NCBI RefSeq assembly: GCF_018598555.1
Contig: NZ_JAHEWN010000018.1
Coordinates: forward strand, 1-64,000
DNA from: Curtobacterium aurantiacum
Lineage (GTDB): Bacteria > Actinomycetota > Actinomycetes > Actinomycetales > Microbacteriaceae
Reading direction: 5' to 3'
DNA: 64,000 nucleotides
Under the pieces are notes generated by a model that saw only the letters and a list, made by a program, of their open reading frames with translations, did not search any database and was not told the DNA's origin. Below, piece by piece: positions 12,463 to 20,859 of the stretch. Within the stretch, counting starts at the first letter, position 1, and each line of letters starts with the position of its first letter. The position numbers and the translations under genes were made by a program.

Positions 12463-12708
12463 TCAGTCCACCTGCCGCAGGATCCGCTCGATGCCGTCGA
12501 GGCGTCGCTCGATGCTCGCGAGGGTGCTCGCGAGTTCGCGCTGCGCCGCCGCGTTGCGTTCGGTAGCCGCCCAGTCACCCTGACCGCGGTCTACCCCCCA
12601 CTTCAGTCGGGCGATCGAGTACACGACCCCACAGATGATTGCCGTCACCGGCACCAGTACCCAGAGCATCCCAGTCCAATCCGTCGTGAAGTCCACGTAG
12701 TCCTCCAT
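12463..12708 (-). CDS. Small membrane protein with coiled-coil tail
   Basis: 81 residues: an N-terminal transmembrane helix (about 13-34, MLWVLVPVTAIICGVVYSIARL) and a cytoplasmic helix rich in Ala, Glu and Arg (RNAAAQRELASTLASIERRLDGIERILRQ), likely a coiled coil. It starts four bases after the ArsR-like gene stops, so it is cotranscribed with that regulator. Role unknown; pairing with a regulator suggests a membrane partner or an accessory of the neighbouring ABC system. Confidence 0.65.
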   Translation of the reverse strand: MEDYVDFTTDWTGMLWVLVPVTAIICGVVYSIARLKWGVDRGQGDWAATERNAAAQRELASTLASIERRLDGIERILRQVD

Positions 12709-12711
12709 CGC

Positions 12712-13035
12712 TCAGTCCACGCCCTCACCAGTGACGTCCGTCGACATCGACGCTGCGACCCGGGTGTCGACCCGGACGTCGGAGTCGGCGAGCGTGTCGT
12801 AGCGGTACGCACGTCCGTCCGGGCCGAGGACCAGTTCGCTGGTCACCAGCCCGGTGGCCTCGAGCCGGGTCAGATGCATCGTCGCCAGCGGACGCGAGAT
12901 CTGCAGTCGACGGGCCAGGTCGCTCGCGTGCATCGTCCCCTCGAACAGCAGCGCGAGCATCCGGAGGCGTGGCGCACTCGCTTGCGCTTGGAGACGCGCG
13001 AGCAACATCGCGTCATCACTCGGGCGTTCGCGCAC
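12712..13035 (-). CDS. ArsR-like winged-helix transcriptional regulator
   Basis: 107 residues. The winged helix is readable: RLRMLALLFEGTMHASDLARRLQISRPLATMHLTRLEATGLV, then a wing (LGPDGRAYRYDTL). I see no Cys metal-sensing motif, so a metalloid sensor is unlikely; this is the general ArsR/HTH_20 type. It lies downstream of the ABC permease, on the same strand, and is followed at once by a small membrane protein. A perfect 10-bp palindrome (13108-13117) upstream may be its own site. It plausibly controls the exporter and precursor peptide cassette. Confidence 0.75.
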   Translation of the reverse strand: MRERPSDDAMLLARLQAQASAPRLRMLALLFEGTMHASDLARRLQISRPLATMHLTRLEATGLVTSELVLGPDGRAYRYDTLADSDVRVDTRVAASMSTDVTGEGVD

Positions 13036-13107
13036 AGTCCGTCCCGATACGTGTCGAGCCTCGGTCTCCTCATCTCAGCCGCAGCCCCCCTCGTGCCGGA
13101 GTGATCG

Positions 13108-13117
13108 GTACCGGTAC
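13108..13117. promoter_or_regulatory. Candidate operator palindrome
   Basis: Perfect 10-bp palindrome GTACCGGTAC in the gap upstream of the ArsR-like gene. Short, so chance occurrence is possible. Confidence 0.3.
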
Positions 13118-13123
13118 GTGTTC

Positions 13124-13150
13124 TCTCGCACCATCCATCGCGGTGCGAGA
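13124..13150 (-). terminator. Terminator-like hairpin after the ABC permease
   Basis: Perfect 9-bp stem TCTCGCACC (13124-13132) with 13142-13150 and a 9-base loop, 36 bases downstream of the permease stop. No U tract follows, so it may be a weak or Rho-aided terminator. Confidence 0.45.
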
Positions 13151-13185
13151 TCGACCCGCACCGTCTGTCCCCCCGTGAACATGGC

Positions 13186-14025
13186 TTACTCGGCTGACTT
13201 CCTGCGGGTGAAGCCCCGAGGCTCGCGCTCGGATGCCCACCGGAAGAAGGCGCCGGACAGGACGATGCCGATGACGGCCCACCCGAGCAGGATCAGGACT
13301 TGTCGACCGTCGCAGGCAAACGTGCCCTCGGAGAAGACCGCAGCGAACAGCTGGAAGAGCGGCGCACCGGGGAGGTAGGGGACGATGGCATCGACGACGG
13401 CACCGAGCGGCACCGTGATGAACGCGCCCGACAGGAACGCGAGCGGGAAGAAGATGCCGTTGACGATCGGGACTGCCGCGTCGGCGTTCGGCGGGAGCAG
13501 CGAGAGCGCCACGCCGATGGGCGACAGGGCGATGAAGCCGAGCACTGCCGTCACGACGAGCGGCACGATGCGGTCGGGGTCCATCGTGACCCGGAGACCG
13601 AGGAACCCGATCGCGGAGACCACCGCGAGCACGATGACCAGGGTGACGAAGATGTTCACGAGGAACGCACCCATGACGACCCACGGCGGTACCGGTGTTG
13701 TCCGGAACCGACGAAACAGGCCGTGTTCGCGGCGGATCGCCAGGCCGATCGCGACGTTCGCGAACGTCACGGACATCAGCGCGAACGTCAGCACGCCCGC
13801 ATAACTGAGGTTTGCCTGTCGGATCTCCGCACCGTCCACGGAACGAATGCTGTCCGCAGCACTCAGGAATGCAACTCCGAACACGACGTAGAACATGACG
13901 GGCATGAGCACGATGAACGCGAGCGAGATGACCGACATCCAGAAGTCGACGAATTCTGATCGCGTGTGCAAGAGAAAACTCTTCACAAAGTTGTGCCGCT
14001 TTCCAACGGCTGCTGCGAGCGTCAC
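13186..14025 (-). CDS. ABC-2 type transporter permease
   Basis: 279 residues with about six transmembrane helices, in the ABC-2 pattern: a first helix (about 31-50, VISLAFIVLMPVMFYVVFGVA), a large loop, then YAGVLTFALMSVTFANVAIGLAIRRE followed by the typical FRRFRTTPVPPWV coupling segment, and paired helices to the C-terminus. It starts by GTG overlapping the ATPase stop (GTGA), so the two are translationally coupled. Daunorubicin- or bacteriocin-type exporters have this half-size design. With the ATPase it probably exports, or protects against, the peptide made from 15011-15187; this is inferred from position. Confidence 0.88.
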   Translation of the reverse strand: MTLAAAVGKRHNFVKSFLLHTRSEFVDFWMSVISLAFIVLMPVMFYVVFGVAFLSAADSIRSVDGAEIRQANLSYAGVLTFALMSVTFANVAIGLAIRREHGLFRRFRTTPVPPWVVMGAFLVNIFVTLVIVLAVVSAIGFLGLRVTMDPDRIVPLVVTAVLGFIALSPIGVALSLLPPNADAAVPIVNGIFFPLAFLSGAFITVPLGAVVDAIVPYLPGAPLFQLFAAVFSEGTFACDGRQVLILLGWAVIGIVLSGAFFRWASEREPRGFTRRKSAE

Positions 14026-14927
14026 GCGGAGACCTCCGGTTCACCGACGAGCTTGACGTACGCATCGTCGAGGGTGGGTGCGACGATCGTCAGGTCACCG
14101 AGGTTGTGCCCCGTGGAGGCCTCCCACGATCGCAGCTGTTCGAGGAGCTTGCCGTGGGACGGCGTGGAGTACCGGAGACGCTCGCCGACACGGACGGCTC
14201 CGGCTGGGAGCAGCTCGCGTTCGCCGGCGGGGAGATCGAACTCGACCCGTCCGGGGGCGGCTGACAGCCGCACGATGTCCCGCGGGCTGCCGCTCGCGGC
14301 GAAGTGGCCGTCGCGGAGGATGTGCACGGCGTCGGCCAGCTGCTGGACCTCGTCCAGGTCGTGGGAGGTGAGCACCACGGTCACCCCGGCCCGGTTCGAG
14401 TCGGCGATGAGCCCGCGGATCGAATGTCGGGAGATCGGGTCGAGACCGGTCGACGGTTCGTCGAGGAACAGGATCCGTGGGCGGCCGACGAATGCCAACG
14501 CAAGGTCGAGACGACGACGCATACCGCCGGACAGGGACCGGACCGGCTTCTGCGCGAACTCGTCGAGGCCGAAGCGGGTCACCGATTCTGTGAGCGGCAC
14601 GGCGTCCGGGTAGTAACTGGCCTGCCGGAGAAGCAGATCGCGAGGCGTCAGTGCAGGTTCGAGGAGCGTCTGCTGCATGACGACGCCGATGACCGTCCTG
14701 AGCCGCCGGAAGTCCACGACGTGTCCGGGGTCGTACCCGAGGACCGACAGCGATCCAGAGTCGCGCCCCCGGTGCCCTTCGAGGATCTCGACGAGCGTGG
14801 TCTTCCCGGCACCGTTCGGCCCGAGGAAGGCGGCAACGCTGCCGTCTTCGACGACGACGTCGAGTGCCCGGAGGACGTCGACCCCGCGGTAGCTCTTGGT
14901 CAGCCCATCGGCTGTGATGGCGGCCAT
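14022..14927 (-). CDS. ABC transporter ATP-binding protein (DrrA/CcmA type)
   Basis: 301 residues. Walker A GPNGAGKTT, Q-loop VMQQ, signature LSGGMRRRLDLALAF, Walker B ILFLDEPSTGLDP and switch H (LTSHDLDEVQ) are all present. The C-terminal 80 residues form the extra domain seen in drug- and bacteriocin-exporter ATPases. It lies 83 bases downstream of the precursor-peptide stop with a hairpin between, and overlaps the permease gene. The substrate is inferred to be the neighbouring peptide. Confidence 0.93.
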   Translation of the reverse strand: MAAITADGLTKSYRGVDVLRALDVVVEDGSVAAFLGPNGAGKTTLVEILEGHRGRDSGSLSVLGYDPGHVVDFRRLRTVIGVVMQQTLLEPALTPRDLLLRQASYYPDAVPLTESVTRFGLDEFAQKPVRSLSGGMRRRLDLALAFVGRPRILFLDEPSTGLDPISRHSIRGLIADSNRAGVTVVLTSHDLDEVQQLADAVHILRDGHFAASGSPRDIVRLSAAPGRVEFDLPAGERELLPAGAVRVGERLRYSTPSHGKLLEQLRSWEASTGHNLGDLTIVAPTLDDAYVKLVGEPEVSA

Positions 14928-14970
14928 GGATGGGTCCTATCTGGTTGCTGGATCGGCGGTGATCGGATCA

Positions 14971-15004
14971 GTGCGGGGCTCTCACGCGCATGACAGCCCC
15001 GCAC
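14971..15004 (-). terminator. Hairpin between precursor peptide and ABC genes
   Basis: Perfect 10-bp stem GTGCGGGGCT (14971-14980) with 14995-15004 and a 14-base loop, starting six bases after the precursor stop. No U tract follows, so it may act as a partial terminator or mRNA stabiliser, letting the precursor be made in excess over the transporter. Confidence 0.5.
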
Positions 15005-15010
15005 GCTGGA

Positions 15011-15187
15011 TCAGCCGCAGGACCCCGACGAGCAGCACGAGCTGCTGCCACAGCAGGACGTCGAGGTGCAGCTGCTGCTGCCGCTCGTGGCCCCCGTCTC
15101 GGGAACGGCGACCGCCTCACGGACGGACAGGACCTCGAGACCGCTGAAGTCGAGATCTGGCAGATCAATGATTGAGTTGCGCTCCAC
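15011..15187 (-). CDS. Thiazolylpeptide-type RiPP precursor peptide (candidate)
   Basis: 58 residues from GTG 15187. The leader (about 1-36) is acidic and hydrophobic, IIDLPDLDFSGLEVLSVREA then VAVPETGATSG, a pattern I recognise from thiazolylpeptide-type bacteriocin precursors (leader ending in a PETGA/PEMGA-like motif). The core (37-58) consists only of Ser, Cys, Thr and Gly, with six Cys in C, CC, CC, C order, suitable for cyclodehydration to azoles. An AAGGGG ribosome site (15196-15201) lies eight bases upstream, and a near-consensus promoter precedes it. The next genes encode an ABC exporter. No modification enzyme is in the window, so whether the peptide is processed is open. A plain Cys-rich peptide is the alternative. 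Confidence 0.78.
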   Translation of the reverse strand: MERNSIIDLPDLDFSGLEVLSVREAVAVPETGATSGSSSCTSTSCCGSSSCCSSGSCG

Positions 15188-15236
15188 GATGAAGTCCCCT
15201 TCGCCACGGAACCAGCCAATCCAGCACCTGGCCGTT

Positions 15237-15265
15237 AACATATTGCCGTTCTTACTCGGCGTCAA
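15237..15265 (-). promoter_or_regulatory. Sigma-70-type promoter of the precursor peptide
   Basis: On the minus strand TTGACG (15265-15260), exactly 17 bases, then TATGTT (15242-15237). This is close to the housekeeping consensus and stands out in a high-GC genome. The expected transcript start near 15230 leaves a leader of about 40 bases to the GTG start. Confidence 0.7.
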
Positions 15266-15362
15266 CCACGGTCCCGAGTCCAGGGAAGTGCATGGGGTCC
15301 TTGGGTGACGACGGGGCGGCGCCGTTGCGCTGCCAGCATCGGGGGTGCGGCTCTGAGCCGTG

Positions 15363-16298
15363 TCAGACCAAGACCGACAGCTGGTCGAGCCGCTCGAGGA
15401 TGACGCCCTCGCGCAGCGCCCACGGGCAGATCTCGAGGGCCGGCGGGTCGAAGATGTCCAGGCACGCCTCGGCGACGAGCGCCCCGGGCACCACCTGGTG
15501 CGCCCGGCTCGCCGAGACGCCGGGCAGCGCCGCGAGCTCGTCGACCGACATCGTCAGCAGCTCCGGCAGCCGCTGCCGCAGCACCGCGCCGTCGAGCGCC
15601 CGCGGCACCAGGGGCCCGGCAACCGACGGCGCGGCCCCGCAGATGCGGGCGATCGACCGGAACGTCTTCGACGTCGCCACGGCCCGGTCCGGCCGACCCG
15701 AGCGGAGCAGCCGTCCCGCGTCACGGGCGATCTCGACGCGGATCTCGTGCCGGATCCGGCGGACGTCGTCCTCGGTCGGGGTGCCTGCGGAGAAGTACGA
15801 GCGCGCGAGGCGTGCGGCGCCGATCGGCATGGACCACGCGACGTCCGGCGCCTCGTCGGCACCGCCGGCGATCTCGAGCGAGCCACCGCCGATGTCGAAG
15901 ACCGCCAGGCGACCGGCGGACCAGCCGAACCACCGGCGCACGGCCAGGAACGTCAACCGGGCCTCGTCCGAGCCGGACAGGACGGCCAGCTCGACCCCGG
16001 TGGACGACTCGACGTGGGCGAGCACGGCCTCGGAGTTGCCGGCGTCGCGCACCGCCGAGGTGGCGAACGCGAGCATGTCCTCGCAGCCGCGCTCCTCGGC
16101 GACCCGGACGGCGTCGGCGACGAAGGTGGTCAGGGCGTCGATCCCCTGCTGCGTCACAGCGCCCGAGTCGTCCAGGTGCTCGGCCAGCCGCAGCGGCTGC
16201 TTGAACGAGGACGCCGGCAGCGGCGCGGCGCCGCCGTGGGCGTCCACCACGAGCAGGTGGCCGGTGTTGGACCCGATGTCGAGGACTCCCACGCGCAT
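15363..16298 (-). CDS. Ppx/GppA phosphatase family protein
   Basis: 311 residues of the sugar-kinase/Hsp70 fold. N-terminal phosphate-1 motif VGVLDIGSNTGHLLVVDAHGG, then FATSAVRDAGN, SGSDEARLTF and the phosphate-2 motif FDIGGGSLEIAGG, then the C-terminal MSVDELAALPGVSASRA block. Members hydrolyse polyphosphate and/or pppGpp in the cytosol. The length equals the short actinobacterial Ppx forms without a C-terminal HD domain. It stands between the precursor-peptide promoter and the ribokinase operon, with no sign of coupling to either. Confidence 0.92.
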   Translation of the reverse strand: MRVGVLDIGSNTGHLLVVDAHGGAAPLPASSFKQPLRLAEHLDDSGAVTQQGIDALTTFVADAVRVAEERGCEDMLAFATSAVRDAGNSEAVLAHVESSTGVELAVLSGSDEARLTFLAVRRWFGWSAGRLAVFDIGGGSLEIAGGADEAPDVAWSMPIGAARLARSYFSAGTPTEDDVRRIRHEIRVEIARDAGRLLRSGRPDRAVATSKTFRSIARICGAAPSVAGPLVPRALDGAVLRQRLPELLTMSVDELAALPGVSASRAHQVVPGALVAEACLDIFDPPALEICPWALREGVILERLDQLSVLV

Positions 16299-16313
16299 GC
16301 CACAACGCTAGCG

Positions 16314-16336
16314 GGCCGTGCAGTCACCGCACGGCC
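16314..16336 (-). terminator. Hairpin at the end of the ribokinase operon
   Basis: 8-bp stem GGCCGTGC (16314-16321) with 16329-16336, 7-base loop, 13 bases after the ribokinase stop. The adjoining GGGAGGCCCGTC string resembles one arm of repeat family A. Confidence 0.5.
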
Positions 16337-16348
16337 GGGAGGCCCGTC

Positions 16349-17209
16349 TCACACCCGCAGGAACGCCTCCAGCTCGGCGGTGGTCGGGTACGAGGCCTGT
16401 GCGCCCGGCTTGGTCGCGGCGTACGCCCCGACCCCCACCGCGAACCGAGCGGCGTCGACGAGGGTGTCCCCCGCGGCCAGGCGCAGCGCCACCGCACCCA
16501 TGAAGGCGTCGCCGCAGCCCGTGGTGTCCACCGGATCGACCCGCACGGCGTCGATCGCGACCGGCTCAGAACCGCCGTCGTGCACGACGCAGCCGGCACC
16601 GCCGCGGGTGACGATCGACCGTGCGACGCCGTGGTCACCGAGCGCCACGGCCTCGTGCTCGTTCACCAGCAGCACGTCGGTCAGTTCGAGGAGCTCGGCC
16701 GGCACGGCACCGAACGGCGACAGGTTCGTGAGCACCGTGACCCCGGCGACGTGCGCGGCCCGGGCGGCGGCGAGGACGACGTCGATCGAGACCTCAAGGC
16801 AGAGCCCGAGCACCGCGGCACCCGAGAAGACGTCGGCGGGCACGTCGTCCGGCGTCAGCGTGCCGTTCGCCCCGGCGGAGATCACGATGGTGTTCTCGCC
16901 GGCGGCGTCGACCGTGATCACGGCGGTGCCGGTGGCCACGCCCTCCCGGACGGCGACGTGCGTGGTGTCGACCCCCGCAGCCGCGACGGAGTCGCGGAGC
17001 AGCGCACCGTTCCCGTCGTCGCCGACCGCACCGATCATGCGCACCGTGCCCCCGAGCCTCCCGGCGGCCACCGCCTGGTTGGCGGACTTGCCCCCGGGCA
17101 GGATGGCGAGGTCGGAGCCCTGCAGGGTCTCACCGGGCTGGGGGAAGCGCTCGGTGCGGACCACCAGGTCCGCGTTGAGCGACCCGACGACGACGATGCT
17201 CTCGGTCAA
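16349..17209 (-). CDS. rbsK: Ribokinase (PfkB family)
   Basis: 286 residues; phosphorylates ribose at O-5. PfkB signatures: VVVGSLNADLVVRTERFPQPGETLQG with GGKSANQAVAAGRLGG near the N-terminus, and DTTGCGDAFMGAVALRLAAG near the C-terminus holding the catalytic Asp in the anion hole. It overlaps the MFS gene by four bases. In this operon the upstream nucleoside hydrolase would release ribose, which this enzyme then traps as ribose-5-phosphate, so the set reads as nucleoside salvage. Confidence 0.93.
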   Translation of the reverse strand: MTESIVVVGSLNADLVVRTERFPQPGETLQGSDLAILPGGKSANQAVAAGRLGGTVRMIGAVGDDGNGALLRDSVAAAGVDTTHVAVREGVATGTAVITVDAAGENTIVISAGANGTLTPDDVPADVFSGAAVLGLCLEVSIDVVLAAARAAHVAGVTVLTNLSPFGAVPAELLELTDVLLVNEHEAVALGDHGVARSIVTRGGAGCVVHDGGSEPVAIDAVRVDPVDTTGCGDAFMGAVALRLAAGDTLVDAARFAVGVGAYAATKPGAQASYPTTAELEAFLRV

Positions 17210-18636
17210 CGGACGGTCTCCTTCTGCGGGGCGACGGACGTGGTCTCGGCGCCCTCCGGACGGGGGATGAGGAACGAGATCGCGAGCGCGACGGTCGTGA
17301 TCGCGGCCCCGAGCAGCATGCCACCGGAGTACCCGGCGGTGCCCGCGGAACCGCCGACGCCGAGCGCGATCTGCAGCGCGGGCAGGACGGCGAAGCTGAC
17401 CCCGGCACCGAGGTTGAACGCACCGGCGTTCAGGCCGGGCAGGAACCCGGGGTTCGACTCCGGTGACAGCACGATGCCCAGGCCGTTCAGGATGATGTTC
17501 GCGATGCCGGCGTAGGTGATGCCGATCAGCACGGTCGCGGTGACCAGCACGGGCAGCGAGTGCACGCCGACGAGTGCCATCAGGACGGTCGAGACGATGC
17601 TGCCGATCAGGCCGAAGCGGAGCACGGCGCGGTACCCGATGGTCGGGGCGAGGCGCCCGGCGAAGGGTCCGACGACCCAGCCGACCAGGGCGTACGGGGT
17701 GAGGAACACGAGCGACGCCAGGTCGGGTTCCATCCCGAAGCCGGCGTCACCGTTCTGCGCGAGCGAGGTGACCAGGCCGTTGACGACCGCGAAGACGCCC
17801 GTCATCGTCAGGAACGTCGTCGCCAGGAGCGCCCAGGTCGCCCGGCGCTTCAGGAACCGGGTCTCGACCAGGGGTTCCCGCACCCGCGACTCGACGGCCC
17901 AGAACACCGCGAAGGCGACGAGCGCGACGACGACGCCACCGACCACGAGCACGGGGTTCGCCGCGCCGAGCTTGCCGGCTTCGTTGAACGCCGTGAGCAG
18001 CGCACCGACGCTCACCACGAGGGGCACGACGCCGATCCAGTCCATCCGGGTACCGGCGGAGGGCTTCGACTCGACACCCCAGACGGCGACCAGGAACAGG
18101 GCGATCACGGTGACGACGGCGATGACCCAGAAGATCCCGCGGAAGCCGAAGTTCGTCGCGATCCACCCGCCGGCCAGGGCGTCGACGCCCGCGATGCCGC
18201 CGTTCACCGCGGTCAGCAGGCCGAGCGCTCCGCCGTAGCGCTTCGGGTCGCTGATCTCGTTGCGCAGGACGAGCAGGCAGATCGGGACGACCGGACCGGT
18301 GACGCCCTGGATGATGCGGCCGGCGAACAGCATCGGCACGTTCACCGCGAGCGCGGCGACGATGCTGCCGACGAGCATCACGGCGAGCATGCCGAGCAGC
18401 ACGCGCTTGCGCCCGACGATGTCGGACAGCCGCGGCAGGAACAGCGAGAACAGCGCCGCGAGCGTGAAGTACAGGGTCTGCGACAGGCCGATGGTGGCAT
18501 CGTCCGTGTCGAGCTCGCGCGCCATCGTGACGAGGGCGGGGCTGAGCATGCTCGCGTTCAGCTGGAACGCGATGCACGCGGCGAGGAGCGCGGCGGTGAG
18601 CGCGCCGATCGACTTCTTCGTCGAGGTGGTGGTCAT
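17206..18636 (-). CDS. MFS transporter of the nucleoside/ribose operon
   Basis: 476 residues with 14 predicted transmembrane helices and MFS signatures (LPRLSDIVGRKRVLLG in the 2-3 loop, GRIIQGVTGPVVPICLLVLRNE). Sequence class is close to the DHA2 drug-efflux type, but its position between nucleoside hydrolase (5 bases upstream) and ribokinase (4-base overlap) suggests nucleoside or ribose uptake, or possibly base export. Which of these it does cannot be read from sequence. Confidence 0.88.
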   Translation of the reverse strand: MTTTSTKKSIGALTAALLAACIAFQLNASMLSPALVTMARELDTDDATIGLSQTLYFTLAALFSLFLPRLSDIVGRKRVLLGMLAVMLVGSIVAALAVNVPMLFAGRIIQGVTGPVVPICLLVLRNEISDPKRYGGALGLLTAVNGGIAGVDALAGGWIATNFGFRGIFWVIAVVTVIALFLVAVWGVESKPSAGTRMDWIGVVPLVVSVGALLTAFNEAGKLGAANPVLVVGGVVVALVAFAVFWAVESRVREPLVETRFLKRRATWALLATTFLTMTGVFAVVNGLVTSLAQNGDAGFGMEPDLASLVFLTPYALVGWVVGPFAGRLAPTIGYRAVLRFGLIGSIVSTVLMALVGVHSLPVLVTATVLIGITYAGIANIILNGLGIVLSPESNPGFLPGLNAGAFNLGAGVSFAVLPALQIALGVGGSAGTAGYSGGMLLGAAITTVALAISFLIPRPEGAETTSVAPQKETVR

Positions 18637-18641
18637 GGGGT

Positions 18642-19673
18642 TCAGTGCTCCGGGGTCGTGGTGATGCCGGCTTCGACGGCGTCGGCGGCGGCACGCGGGG
18701 TCCAGCCGGTGTCGGCCGTCTCGCCGATGCGCTCGAGGGCGTCGACGACGAGGTCCCAGAACCGGCCGTGGTCGAGCTCCATCGCGGCGCTCGTGCGGCA
18801 GTCCTCGGGCGCGGGGGCGCGGAAGTCGGCGACGGTCATGCCGAGGGTCAGGGCGCCCTGGGTCTCGACGCGGATCGGGACCTTCACGGCACGGACGATC
18901 GTGGGGTCGATGACGTAGGCGACGGCACAGGGGTCGTGGACCGGCGGGGCGTCGAAGCCCTGGGCGTCCTTGTAGGTCTGGCCGAAGAAGTCGAGCAGCT
19001 CACCGACGAACGCGGCGGGGGCGGTGCCGACGCCGGCGATGCGCGCGGCGACCTCGGGGGTGGCGAGGGCCTGGTGCGTCAGGTCGAGGCCGACCATCAC
19101 GACGTCCCAGCCGGCCTCGAACACGATGGCCGCGGCCTCGGGGTCGATGACGATGTTGAACTCGGCGACCGGGCTCCAGTTGCCGACGTGCACGCCGCCG
19201 CCCATGAGCACGACCTGCTTGACGCGCTCGACGATGCGGGGCTCCTTGCGGGCGGCGAGGGCGATGTTGGTCAGGCCGCCGGTCGGCACGAGGGTGACCG
19301 TGCCGGGCTCGTGGGCCATCACGGTGTCGATGATCAGGTCGACGGCGTGGCGCTCGTCGAGCTCGAACGACGGCTCGGGGAGCATCGGCCCGTCGAGGCC
19401 GCTCTCGCCGTGGATGTCCGGTGCCACCTCGATCTGGCGCAGCAGCGGGCGGGCGGCTCCGGCGGCGAACGGCACCCCGGTGATGCCGGCGATGCGGGCG
19501 ACGGCCAGGGCGTTGCGGGTGACCTTCGGCAGCGTCTGGTTGCCGACGACGGTGGTCACGGCGAGCAGGTCGATCGCCGGGCTGCCGTGGGCGAGCAGGA
19601 GCGCCACGGCGTCGTCGTGGCCGGGGTCGCAGTCGAGGATGATCTTCGCGGCGGGCTGGGTCGCATCGGGCAC
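18642..19673 (-). CDS. Inosine-uridine-preferring nucleoside hydrolase
   Basis: 343 residues. The hallmark N-terminal Asp cluster is clear: KIILDCDPGHDDAVALLLAH; the second is VTLVPTGGLTNIALAARKEP, and the C-terminal VHDPCAVAYVIDP carries the calcium/substrate Asp and His. It hydrolyses ribonucleosides to base plus ribose. First gene of the three-gene salvage operon; the promoter region upstream carries two LacI-type operators. Confidence 0.94.
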   Translation of the reverse strand: MPDATQPAAKIILDCDPGHDDAVALLLAHGSPAIDLLAVTTVVGNQTLPKVTRNALAVARIAGITGVPFAAGAARPLLRQIEVAPDIHGESGLDGPMLPEPSFELDERHAVDLIIDTVMAHEPGTVTLVPTGGLTNIALAARKEPRIVERVKQVVLMGGGVHVGNWSPVAEFNIVIDPEAAAIVFEAGWDVVMVGLDLTHQALATPEVAARIAGVGTAPAAFVGELLDFFGQTYKDAQGFDAPPVHDPCAVAYVIDPTIVRAVKVPIRVETQGALTLGMTVADFRAPAPEDCRTSAAMELDHGRFWDLVVDALERIGETADTGWTPRAAADAVEAGITTTPEH

Positions 19674-19762
19674 GCTGGGCGCTCCACTTCTTCGGGGAAT
19701 CGAGGTGAGTGCTCGACGTGGTGGGGATCCGCACCCCCGACAGAACGTCGGGCAGGCGGCGC

Positions 19763-19776
19763 GTCAAGCGTTTGAC
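19763..19776. promoter_or_regulatory. LacI-family operator 1
   Basis: GTCAAGCGTTTGAC, 14 bp and one base away from a perfect palindrome, with the central CG typical of LacI-family sites. It lies between the nucleoside hydrolase start (19673) and lacI-type gene (19837). Confidence 0.75.
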
Positions 19777-19786
19777 ATCGAAACAC

Positions 19787-19800
19787 GTCAAACGTTTGAC
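19787..19800. promoter_or_regulatory. LacI-family operator 2
   Basis: GTCAAACGTTTGAC, a perfect 14-bp palindrome whose centre is exactly 24 bp from operator 1. It ends 37 bases before the regulator start and probably serves autoregulation. Confidence 0.8.
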
Positions 19801-19836
19801 GTCAAGTTCCGGCGGTGCGCTCGCTAGCATCGACGG

Positions 19837-20835
19837 GTGCCCTCCCCCGCCACCCCGAGCCGTCGCGTGACCGCTGCGATGGTGGCGGAGCGAGCGGGCA
19901 CGAGCATCGCCACGGTCTCCCTCGTCGTGAACGGCAAGGACCGCGGACGGGTCTCCGGGCCGATCGCCACCCGGGTGCGCGACGCCGTGGACGAGCTCGG
20001 CTACGTCGTCGACCACGCGGCGAGCGCACTGGCGCGGGGCAGCGGCGACCTCGTCGTGTTCATCGCCCCCGACCTGTCGAACCCGTTCTTCGCCGAGGTC
20101 ATCCGCGGTGTCCGCGACACCCTCGGCGACCGCTTCCAGCTCGTGCTCTCCGTCACCGAGCGGGGCGCACAGCCCGTCGCAGCCGACGTCCGGCGGTTCG
20201 AGCGACTGCGGCCAGCCGGCATCCTGGTCGACGCCCCCGCCGCCGGGGAGTCGATGTCGGCGAGCGTCCCCGTGGTGCTGCTCGACGCCCCCGGCGGACC
20301 CGACGCCGTCAACTACGACCTCTCGACCGGCGTCCATGACCTCGTCGCGCACCTGCACGACCGGGGGCACCGGCACGTGGGCTACCTCGACGGCACCTCG
20401 CGGGCGACGACCTTCGGTGTGCGGCGGGAGCTGTTCGAGCAGGCCTGCGCCGCCGTCGGCATCACCGTCTCCGAGGTCACCGCCCGCGCCGACCTGACCG
20501 TGGACGCCGCAGCTTCGGCCACCGAGCACGTCATCGAGGCCTGGCAGGACGACGACGTCACCGCCGTCGTCGCGGCCGCGGACACCCTGGCCTACGGAGT
20601 CCTGCGGGTCGCCGGTTCGCTCGGCATCGCCGTCCCCGGCGCACTCGCGGTCGCGGGCTTCGACGACCTGCCGTCGTCGTCGGTCACCGCGCCGGCCCTG
20701 ACGAGCGTGGCGCTGCCCGGCGCCGACCTCGGCCGGGCTGCAGCACTGCGGCTCCTCGCGACGCTCGACGGCACGGCCGCCGAGCCCGCGGCGCTCCCCA
20801 CGCGGCTGGTGCCGCGCGCGAGCACCGGCGCGTAG
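19837..20835 (+). CDS. LacI-family transcriptional regulator
   Basis: 332 residues from GTG 19837. N-terminal HTH (about 10-60): RRVTAAMVAERAGTSIATVSLVVNGKDRGRVS, then the hinge helix (DHAASALARGSGDL) and a periplasmic-binding-like effector domain (VVFIAPDLSNPFFAEVIRGV, VAGFDDLPSSSVTAPALTSVALPG). It diverges from the nucleoside hydrolase operon over two matching operators, so it very probably represses that operon and itself, with a nucleoside or ribose as inducer. Confidence 0.92.
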   Translation: MPSPATPSRRVTAAMVAERAGTSIATVSLVVNGKDRGRVSGPIATRVRDAVDELGYVVDHAASALARGSGDLVVFIAPDLSNPFFAEVIRGVRDTLGDRFQLVLSVTERGAQPVAADVRRFERLRPAGILVDAPAAGESMSASVPVVLLDAPGGPDAVNYDLSTGVHDLVAHLHDRGHRHVGYLDGTSRATTFGVRRELFEQACAAVGITVSEVTARADLTVDAAASATEHVIEAWQDDDVTAVVAAADTLAYGVLRVAGSLGIAVPGALAVAGFDDLPSSSVTAPALTSVALPGADLGRAAALRLLATLDGTAAEPAALPTRLVPRASTGA

Positions 20836-20859
20836 CGCCGGGTCACCGCGACCTCACGC

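Follow-up and report, generated by a model that had tools for sequence, protein, structure and literature searches.

How does a peptide precursor of the thiazolylpeptide type come to stand beside an ABC exporter with none of the enzymes that would modify it? The question is raised by a stretch of 64,000 nucleotides from Curtobacterium aurantiacum (contig NZ_JAHEWN010000018.1 of assembly GCF_018598555.1; hereafter the window), for which a previous sequence-only reading had proposed that the modification must come from elsewhere or that the peptide is new in kind. That reading placed a 58-residue gene at 15011..15187; an open reading frame is present there, on the minus strand, which had not been specified, running from a GTG at 15187 to a stop codon ending at 15011 and preceded by the motif GAAGGGG, and the plus-strand frame over the same positions is unrelated. 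Counted on the translation, a leader of 36 residues with VPETGATSG at its end is followed by a 22-residue core (SSSCTSTSCCGSSSCCSSGSCG), which consists of serine, cysteine, threonine and glycine and contains six cysteines, just as described. The proposed thiazolylpeptide-type assignment holds against the curated cut-offs of three family models, NF033400 (64.3 bits; cut-off 30), PF19409 (56.3 bits; cut-off 23.5) and TIGR03892 (31 bits; cut-off 25), the last of which had been suggested as a check. With model scores far above chance, the peptide is classified here as a predicted precursor of the thiazolylpeptide-type (thiopeptide) family. The exporter, too, is where it had been reported: an ABC ATPase and then an ABC-2 permease come next in transcription order (Table 1). 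Beyond the downstream regulator, a small protein encoded at 12463-12708 gives a weak match to PspB (23 bits; cut-off 51.7).

Table 1. Features of the precursor locus, with positions in the window
Feature	Position	Strand	Basis
Promoter-like TTGACG-17-TATGTT upstream of the precursor	15237..15265	-	Consensus match only
Thiazolylpeptide-type precursor gene, intact, GTG start, 58 aa	15011..15187	-	ORF list and family models
ABC transporter ATPase, DrrA-like, intact	14022..14927	-	TIGR01188, 186.2 bits, below cut-off of 312.45
ABC-2 permease, intact	13186..14025	-	Family models
Remnant: first 33 codons (99 bp) of the lost LanB-type dehydratase gene	13084..13182	-	Congener alignment
Last two codons and stop (CG*) of lost precursor 2, fused in frame to the LanB stub	13075..13083	-	
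ArsR/MarR-like winged-helix regulator, downstream neighbour, whole; candidate cluster member at most	12712..13035	-	

To trace the missing enzymes we ran the genome-wide check for YcaO, SagB-type and LanB-type genes that the earlier reading had recommended, and of these a LanB stub was all that it recovered. Profile searches of the whole window genome (35 contigs, 99.99% complete) gave no match to YcaO, to Lant_dehydr_C, to the SagB-type dehydrogenase model TIGR03605 or to the TbtD-type pyridine synthase model NF045556; the first three were found by the same searches in two other strains of the genus, Curtobacterium sp. VKM Ac-1395 and VKM Ac-1376, both of which also matched NF045556, below its cut-off. 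What the window genome keeps of the split LanB dehydratase is a 33-codon stub of the glutamylation part, with no match to the elimination part (Lant_dehydr_C). Among 66 genomes of the genus the LanB protein is full length in two (VKM Ac-1395 and VKM Ac-1376), and a stub in the window genome, and the remaining 63 gave no match. The reported lack of YcaO, cyclodehydratase, dehydrogenase and LanB genes in the window thus agrees with the genome-wide searches, save for a LanB-type fragment of 99 bp at 13084-13182, which a reading of the letters alone had no means of recognising. Enzymes acting in trans find no support in these searches, which covered the YcaO, Lant_dehydr_C, SagB, LanB and TbtD classes, and the notion of a modification supplied from elsewhere is left with no candidate among them.

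A search of the genus with the precursor matched five of the 66 genomes (E <= 0.01). The matches in two of them (G020, E = 0.0061; G022, E = 0.0086) are weak and were treated as chance, since the matched stretches, read in both orientations in G020, contain no cysteine-rich core of the precursor kind. The gene is carried by the remaining three, namely the window genome, VKM Ac-1395 and VKM Ac-1376. Both the gene and its cysteines, whose conservation in close relatives had been put forward as a test, are therefore present in two congeners, with the cysteines at recurring positions, and the gene is missing from most of the genus. All 58 residues are the same as those of precursor 1 of VKM Ac-1376 (which has an ATG start), with 13 synonymous and no nonsynonymous changes over the 56 codons compared, and the precursor shows no residue change specific to the window.

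In both congeners a thiopeptide cluster occupies the chromosomal site of the window, with flanks collinear to those of the window and two precursor copies about 13 kb apart. VKM Ac-1376 (NZ_JADKRV010000003.1) and VKM Ac-1395 (NZ_JADKRX010000001.1) share with the window the site, the core of precursor 1, the ABC pair and the flanks, but they retain precursor 2, in decayed form in VKM Ac-1395, along with an enzyme block, and the window has lost both. The ATPase is 92% and 94% identical in amino acids in the two cluster-bearing congeners, and the permease 89% and 94%. A DNA search for an empty site in other congeners matched 22 of the 66 genomes (E <= 0.001), with strong matches confined to the window, VKM Ac-1395 and VKM Ac-1376. 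The difference at the ArsR/MarR-like gene runs opposite to that of the enzyme block: here it is the window that has the complete gene, and both congeners lack internal sequence, about 150 bp and about 240 bp in the alignments. Precursor 2 of VKM Ac-1395 (L015:13576-13749) has decayed, being devoid of 11 core residues and of its ATG, and this suggests that loss has begun in an enzyme-bearing strain as well. A second YcaO match, with one internal stop, lies on another contig of VKM Ac-1376 (G055:C60:23047-23790, L056).

The congener clusters read, in order, precursor 1, ATPase, permease, LanB-type dehydratase, TbtD-type pyridine synthase, a 530-aa protein, YcaO cyclodehydratase, a 477-residue frame, a fusion of Lant_dehydr_C and SagB, an M20 peptidase and precursor 2. 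The LanB-type protein (837 aa) has no Pfam match of its own and was named after a 41%-identical Nocardiopsis homologue, which matches Lant_dehydr_N with 63.8 bits. The pyridine synthase scores 113.8 bits against NF045556 (cut-off 325) and recovers the TbtD structure 5wa3 at 1.8e-11. The YcaO protein matches TIGR03604 (260.6 bits; cut-off 219.25) and itself contains a match to the leader-binding domain TIGR03882 (49.4 bits; cut-off 36.9). Family scans of the 530-aa protein gave no meaningful match; it stands where an F protein would be expected and is a candidate F protein by gene position alone. The 477-residue frame weakly resembles nitroreductases (15.2 bits; cut-off 23.5), and the fusion protein passes the cut-offs of PF14028 (108.7 bits; 24.4), TIGR03605 (85.3; 78.4) and TIGR03891 (81.6; 48.45). 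Among solved structures phmmer found no match for the LanB-type and F-place proteins. As predicted from these comparisons, the enzyme classes are those expected of a thiopeptide cluster.

Alignment to the two clusters reveals what happened at the window's site. On the 3' side of the permease the window aligns to the first 99 bp of LanB, and directly after these to the final two codons and stop of precursor 2; the deletion joint is at 13084|13083, and the fused frame reads MFTGGQTVRVDLAPRWMVRENTYRYRSLRHEGG-CG*. The alignment blocks that cover the permease end and the LanB stub are 92% identical to VKM Ac-1395 and 84% to VKM Ac-1376, and the missing piece measures 11,302 bp against the former and 11,339 bp against the latter. 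As both ends of the lost block are kept in the window, the strain must have had an ancestor with the block, and a scar that combines LanB codons 1-33 with the CG* of precursor 2 sets the direction as loss rather than late gain. In comparison with the congeners the two ends have about one base in common at the joint, which has the look of illegitimate joining rather than of recombination between precursor repeats. The idea of a collapse through recombination of the two precursor genes was rejected: one side of the joint falls within LanB and the other at the extreme end of precursor 2, and precursor 1 is left intact.

Taken together, these comparisons make it very probable that the window gene survives from a thiopeptide cluster as its precursor gene, the modification genes having gone in a deletion of about 11.3 kb, and the orphan state is attributed to that predicted deletion, with its scar at 13084|13083. 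The roles of YcaO and dehydrogenase, LanB and pyridine synthase are those of the established thiopeptide pathway. In the intact cluster YcaO, a partner protein and the dehydrogenase would convert core cysteines to thiazoles, the split LanB would dehydrate serines and threonines, macrocycle closure and leader release would fall to the pyridine synthase, and export of the product, with perhaps protection of the cell, to the ABC pair. In the window strain, with LanB codon 33 running straight into the final two codons of precursor 2, the precursor would give at most an unmodified peptide. With its modification genes deleted, the strain should not make the antibiotic, and it is most likely a non-producing remnant. 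The stretch scanned for promoters holds one promoter-like match (0.2 expected), both hexamers of which are unchanged in VKM Ac-1376 and VKM Ac-1395; as these hexamers, the precursor and the transporter are intact, expression may persist, and the transporter might still confer immunity.

To see whether the retained genes bear marks of use or of decay, we compared substitutions across the three strains. In pairs with the window dN/dS is 0.10-0.15 for the ATPase and permease, close to the 0.10-0.11 between the two cluster-bearing strains, and each of the two genes has eight window-specific residue changes, versus seven and six, respectively, in VKM Ac-1395. The 33-codon stub itself has no window-specific residue change (four in VKM Ac-1376 and three in VKM Ac-1395) and three window-specific base changes (nine and five). 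A stub that has not drifted in its residues indicates that the deletion is probably young, and with a young deletion the undecayed precursor and exporter are no proof of use. The absence of decay fits recent loss, and continued use of precursor and exporter would look alike.

The nearest relative changes along the locus. For the flanking Ppx and kinase genes dS is 0.13 to VKM Ac-1376, versus 0.40 and 0.45 to VKM Ac-1395, and for the ATPase and permease it is 0.23 and 0.19 to VKM Ac-1395, versus 0.45 and 0.50 to VKM Ac-1376; for the precursor, with 42 synonymous sites, it is 0.40 to VKM Ac-1376 versus 0.59 to VKM Ac-1395. The region from 13084 to 20842 of the window is hence a mosaic, in which the exporter and LanB stub are closest to VKM Ac-1395 and the flanks to VKM Ac-1376. 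This split suggests that part of the locus was probably moved between strains by recombination, and given such mosaic descent the deletion may have come in from another lineage.

Other readings of the locus have to be set against the deletion. That the enzymes exist but fell into assembly gaps or were hidden by a misjoined contig draws on the fragmented state of the assembly but is very improbable, as the assembly is nearly complete, no tested enzyme model matches any contig, including those other than the contig of the window, which argues against a misjoin, and the joint sits within a contig between sequences that share about one base. Hardly credible is the converse history, in which the window preserves an ancestral state of precursor and exporter and the congeners acquired their enzymes later: the ArsR-like gene by the joint, whole in the window and shortened in the congeners, does show that not every difference is a loss by the window, but the LanB 5' stub and precursor 2 tail contradict such an order of events, and the similar gene order in Nocardiopsis (see below) speaks against it too. 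It is also improbable, though less so than either of these, that the precursor still works as an unmodified or otherwise modified peptide with a function of its own, exported by the ABC pair. The lack of nonsynonymous changes against 13 synonymous ones to VKM Ac-1376, and a GTG start with GAAGGGG upstream, would suit a working gene; yet the core is equally conserved beside the enzymes, the making of a thiopeptide before the loss accounts for that conservation, and no enzyme of the modifying classes covered by our searches remains.

The deletion itself might be refined by supposing that the ABC pair is under selection as immunity to the thiopeptides of neighbours, with the precursor carried along upstream, a proposal that we entertain tentatively and rate as rather less than even. 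It is favoured by the intact ATPase and permease, with their dN/dS of 0.10-0.15 and a number of window-specific changes about the same as in VKM Ac-1395, by the retained promoter-like hexamers and by the place of the ABC pair between precursor and LanB in both congeners and in all 17 of the Nocardiopsis/Glycomyces loci described below; moreover, no further self-protection gene was named when the cluster proteins were scanned against family models. Still, the stub, where drift should be unhindered, is just as free of window-specific residue changes, so that too little time may have passed since the deletion for the comparison to have power, and the ABC pair may serve export only. The fuller version, a natural resistant non-producer in which selection maintains the ABC pair as a stand-alone immunity device against a thiopeptide of other Curtobacterium strains, and the precursor, expressed from the retained promoter, is a bystander or a spare core that recombination with producers could revive, is more doubtful again. 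The deletion reading, with or without such a refinement, accounts for the apparent orphan, since its enzymes went with the deleted block and a scar marks the place. It leaves in one genus cluster-bearing strains and a cluster-less one that keeps the transporter without the pathway, and this strain pair offers a clean setting for asking whether a thiopeptide transporter confers immunity.

We then examined how widely the precursor and its core are distributed. Across the class the NF033400 profile matched 28 of 394 sampled genomes, 24 of them above the cut-off; YcaO was present somewhere in the genome in 27 of the 28, the window genome being the exception. In a census of the family, five of 398 genomes matched, three above the cut-off (the window genome, G278 and G319), with VKM Ac-1395 and VKM Ac-1376 not among the matches listed; YcaO was found in G278 and G319 and in neither of the sub-cut-off genomes (G174 and G399). 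An orphan precursor of the thiazolylpeptide type is thus rare in the class and family samples. One of the family members, G319, has a related but altered core (L063). Among the class loci recovered by the profile only (L100 to L118, one per genome), four of 19 (L100-L103) have the window core, and the other 15 have different cores, some in the same genus as L100-L103. The window core, judged from these sequences, is one type among several, common to Curtobacterium and part of Nocardiopsis. A Clavibacter plasmid (NZ_CP083440.1:62696-62776) has an annotated thiazolylpeptide-type bacteriocin that matches residues 7-33 of the precursor, in the leader part.

GTDB species genomes were further scanned with a four-sequence alignment, requiring the exact core stretch CTSTSCCG or a leader stretch, and 20 loci were recovered: three belong to the two Curtobacterium strains and the other 17 to Nocardiopsis, counting one that is filed under Glycomyces fuscus. 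In all 17 of the latter ATPase, permease and at least the LanB start follow one another as in the congeners. Pyridine synthase and F-place protein were found in 16 of them and YcaO in 15; where they are missing, a contig end truncates the locus (L074 and L084). A pattern search over the window, L014, L015 and the 17 loci gave 39 frames, of which a minus-strand chance match in L014 was excluded. Twenty of the 38 precursor copies have the window core exactly, 17 differ by one residue and one is the decayed precursor 2 of VKM Ac-1395, although, the Nocardiopsis loci having been selected by the 8-residue core pattern or a leader pattern, identity in those 8 core residues is partly built in, unlike that of the other 14. 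Each one-residue difference is at core position 18, with glycine or alanine instead of serine. In 16 of the 17 Nocardiopsis/Glycomyces loci (L070-L084 and L087) tandem precursors pair a serine at position 18 with a glycine or alanine, hinting at two related products from a single enzyme set. LanB, pyridine synthase and YcaO matches are fragmented in Nocardiopsis eucommiae HDS5 (L080:12389-19864) and Nocardiopsis sp. CNR-923 (L077:11185-19155), as is the permease match in the latter; this could be decay or sequencing errors.

These distributions contradict the idea of a peptide new in kind, as the core recurs in thiopeptide clusters of both Curtobacterium and Nocardiopsis; the window gene is better seen as a remnant of a known kind of cluster. 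In the literature searched we found no title or abstract that describes the cluster of the two congeners and no occurrence of three strings taken from the core and leader. The Curtobacterium cluster is of an ordinary kind and, as far as that literature goes, apparently undescribed.

The closest known arrangement is that of the two-precursor Nocardiopsis clusters, whose core, in the 17 loci, is the same as that of the window or one residue off. Their gene order, as far as the loci reach, is that of the congeners, running precursor, ABC, ABC, LanB, pyridine synthase, F-place protein and YcaO. They differ in that precursor 2 stands beside precursor 1, upstream of the ABC pair, with two copies in 16 of the 17 loci, and in that the cluster proteins are about 26-62% identical to those of Curtobacterium over whole matches: about 40-62% for ATPase, permease, LanB, pyridine synthase and YcaO, and 26-32% for the F-place protein. 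Thus a core that is near letter-for-letter the same in Curtobacterium and some Nocardiopsis clusters is accompanied by modification enzymes that are just about 26-50% identical over whole matches. As for TbtD and PbtD, the pyridine synthases of the thiomuracin and GE2270 pathways, the pyridine synthase of the congeners resembles TbtD but stays well under the cut-off of NF045556, and its gene is missing from the window genome.
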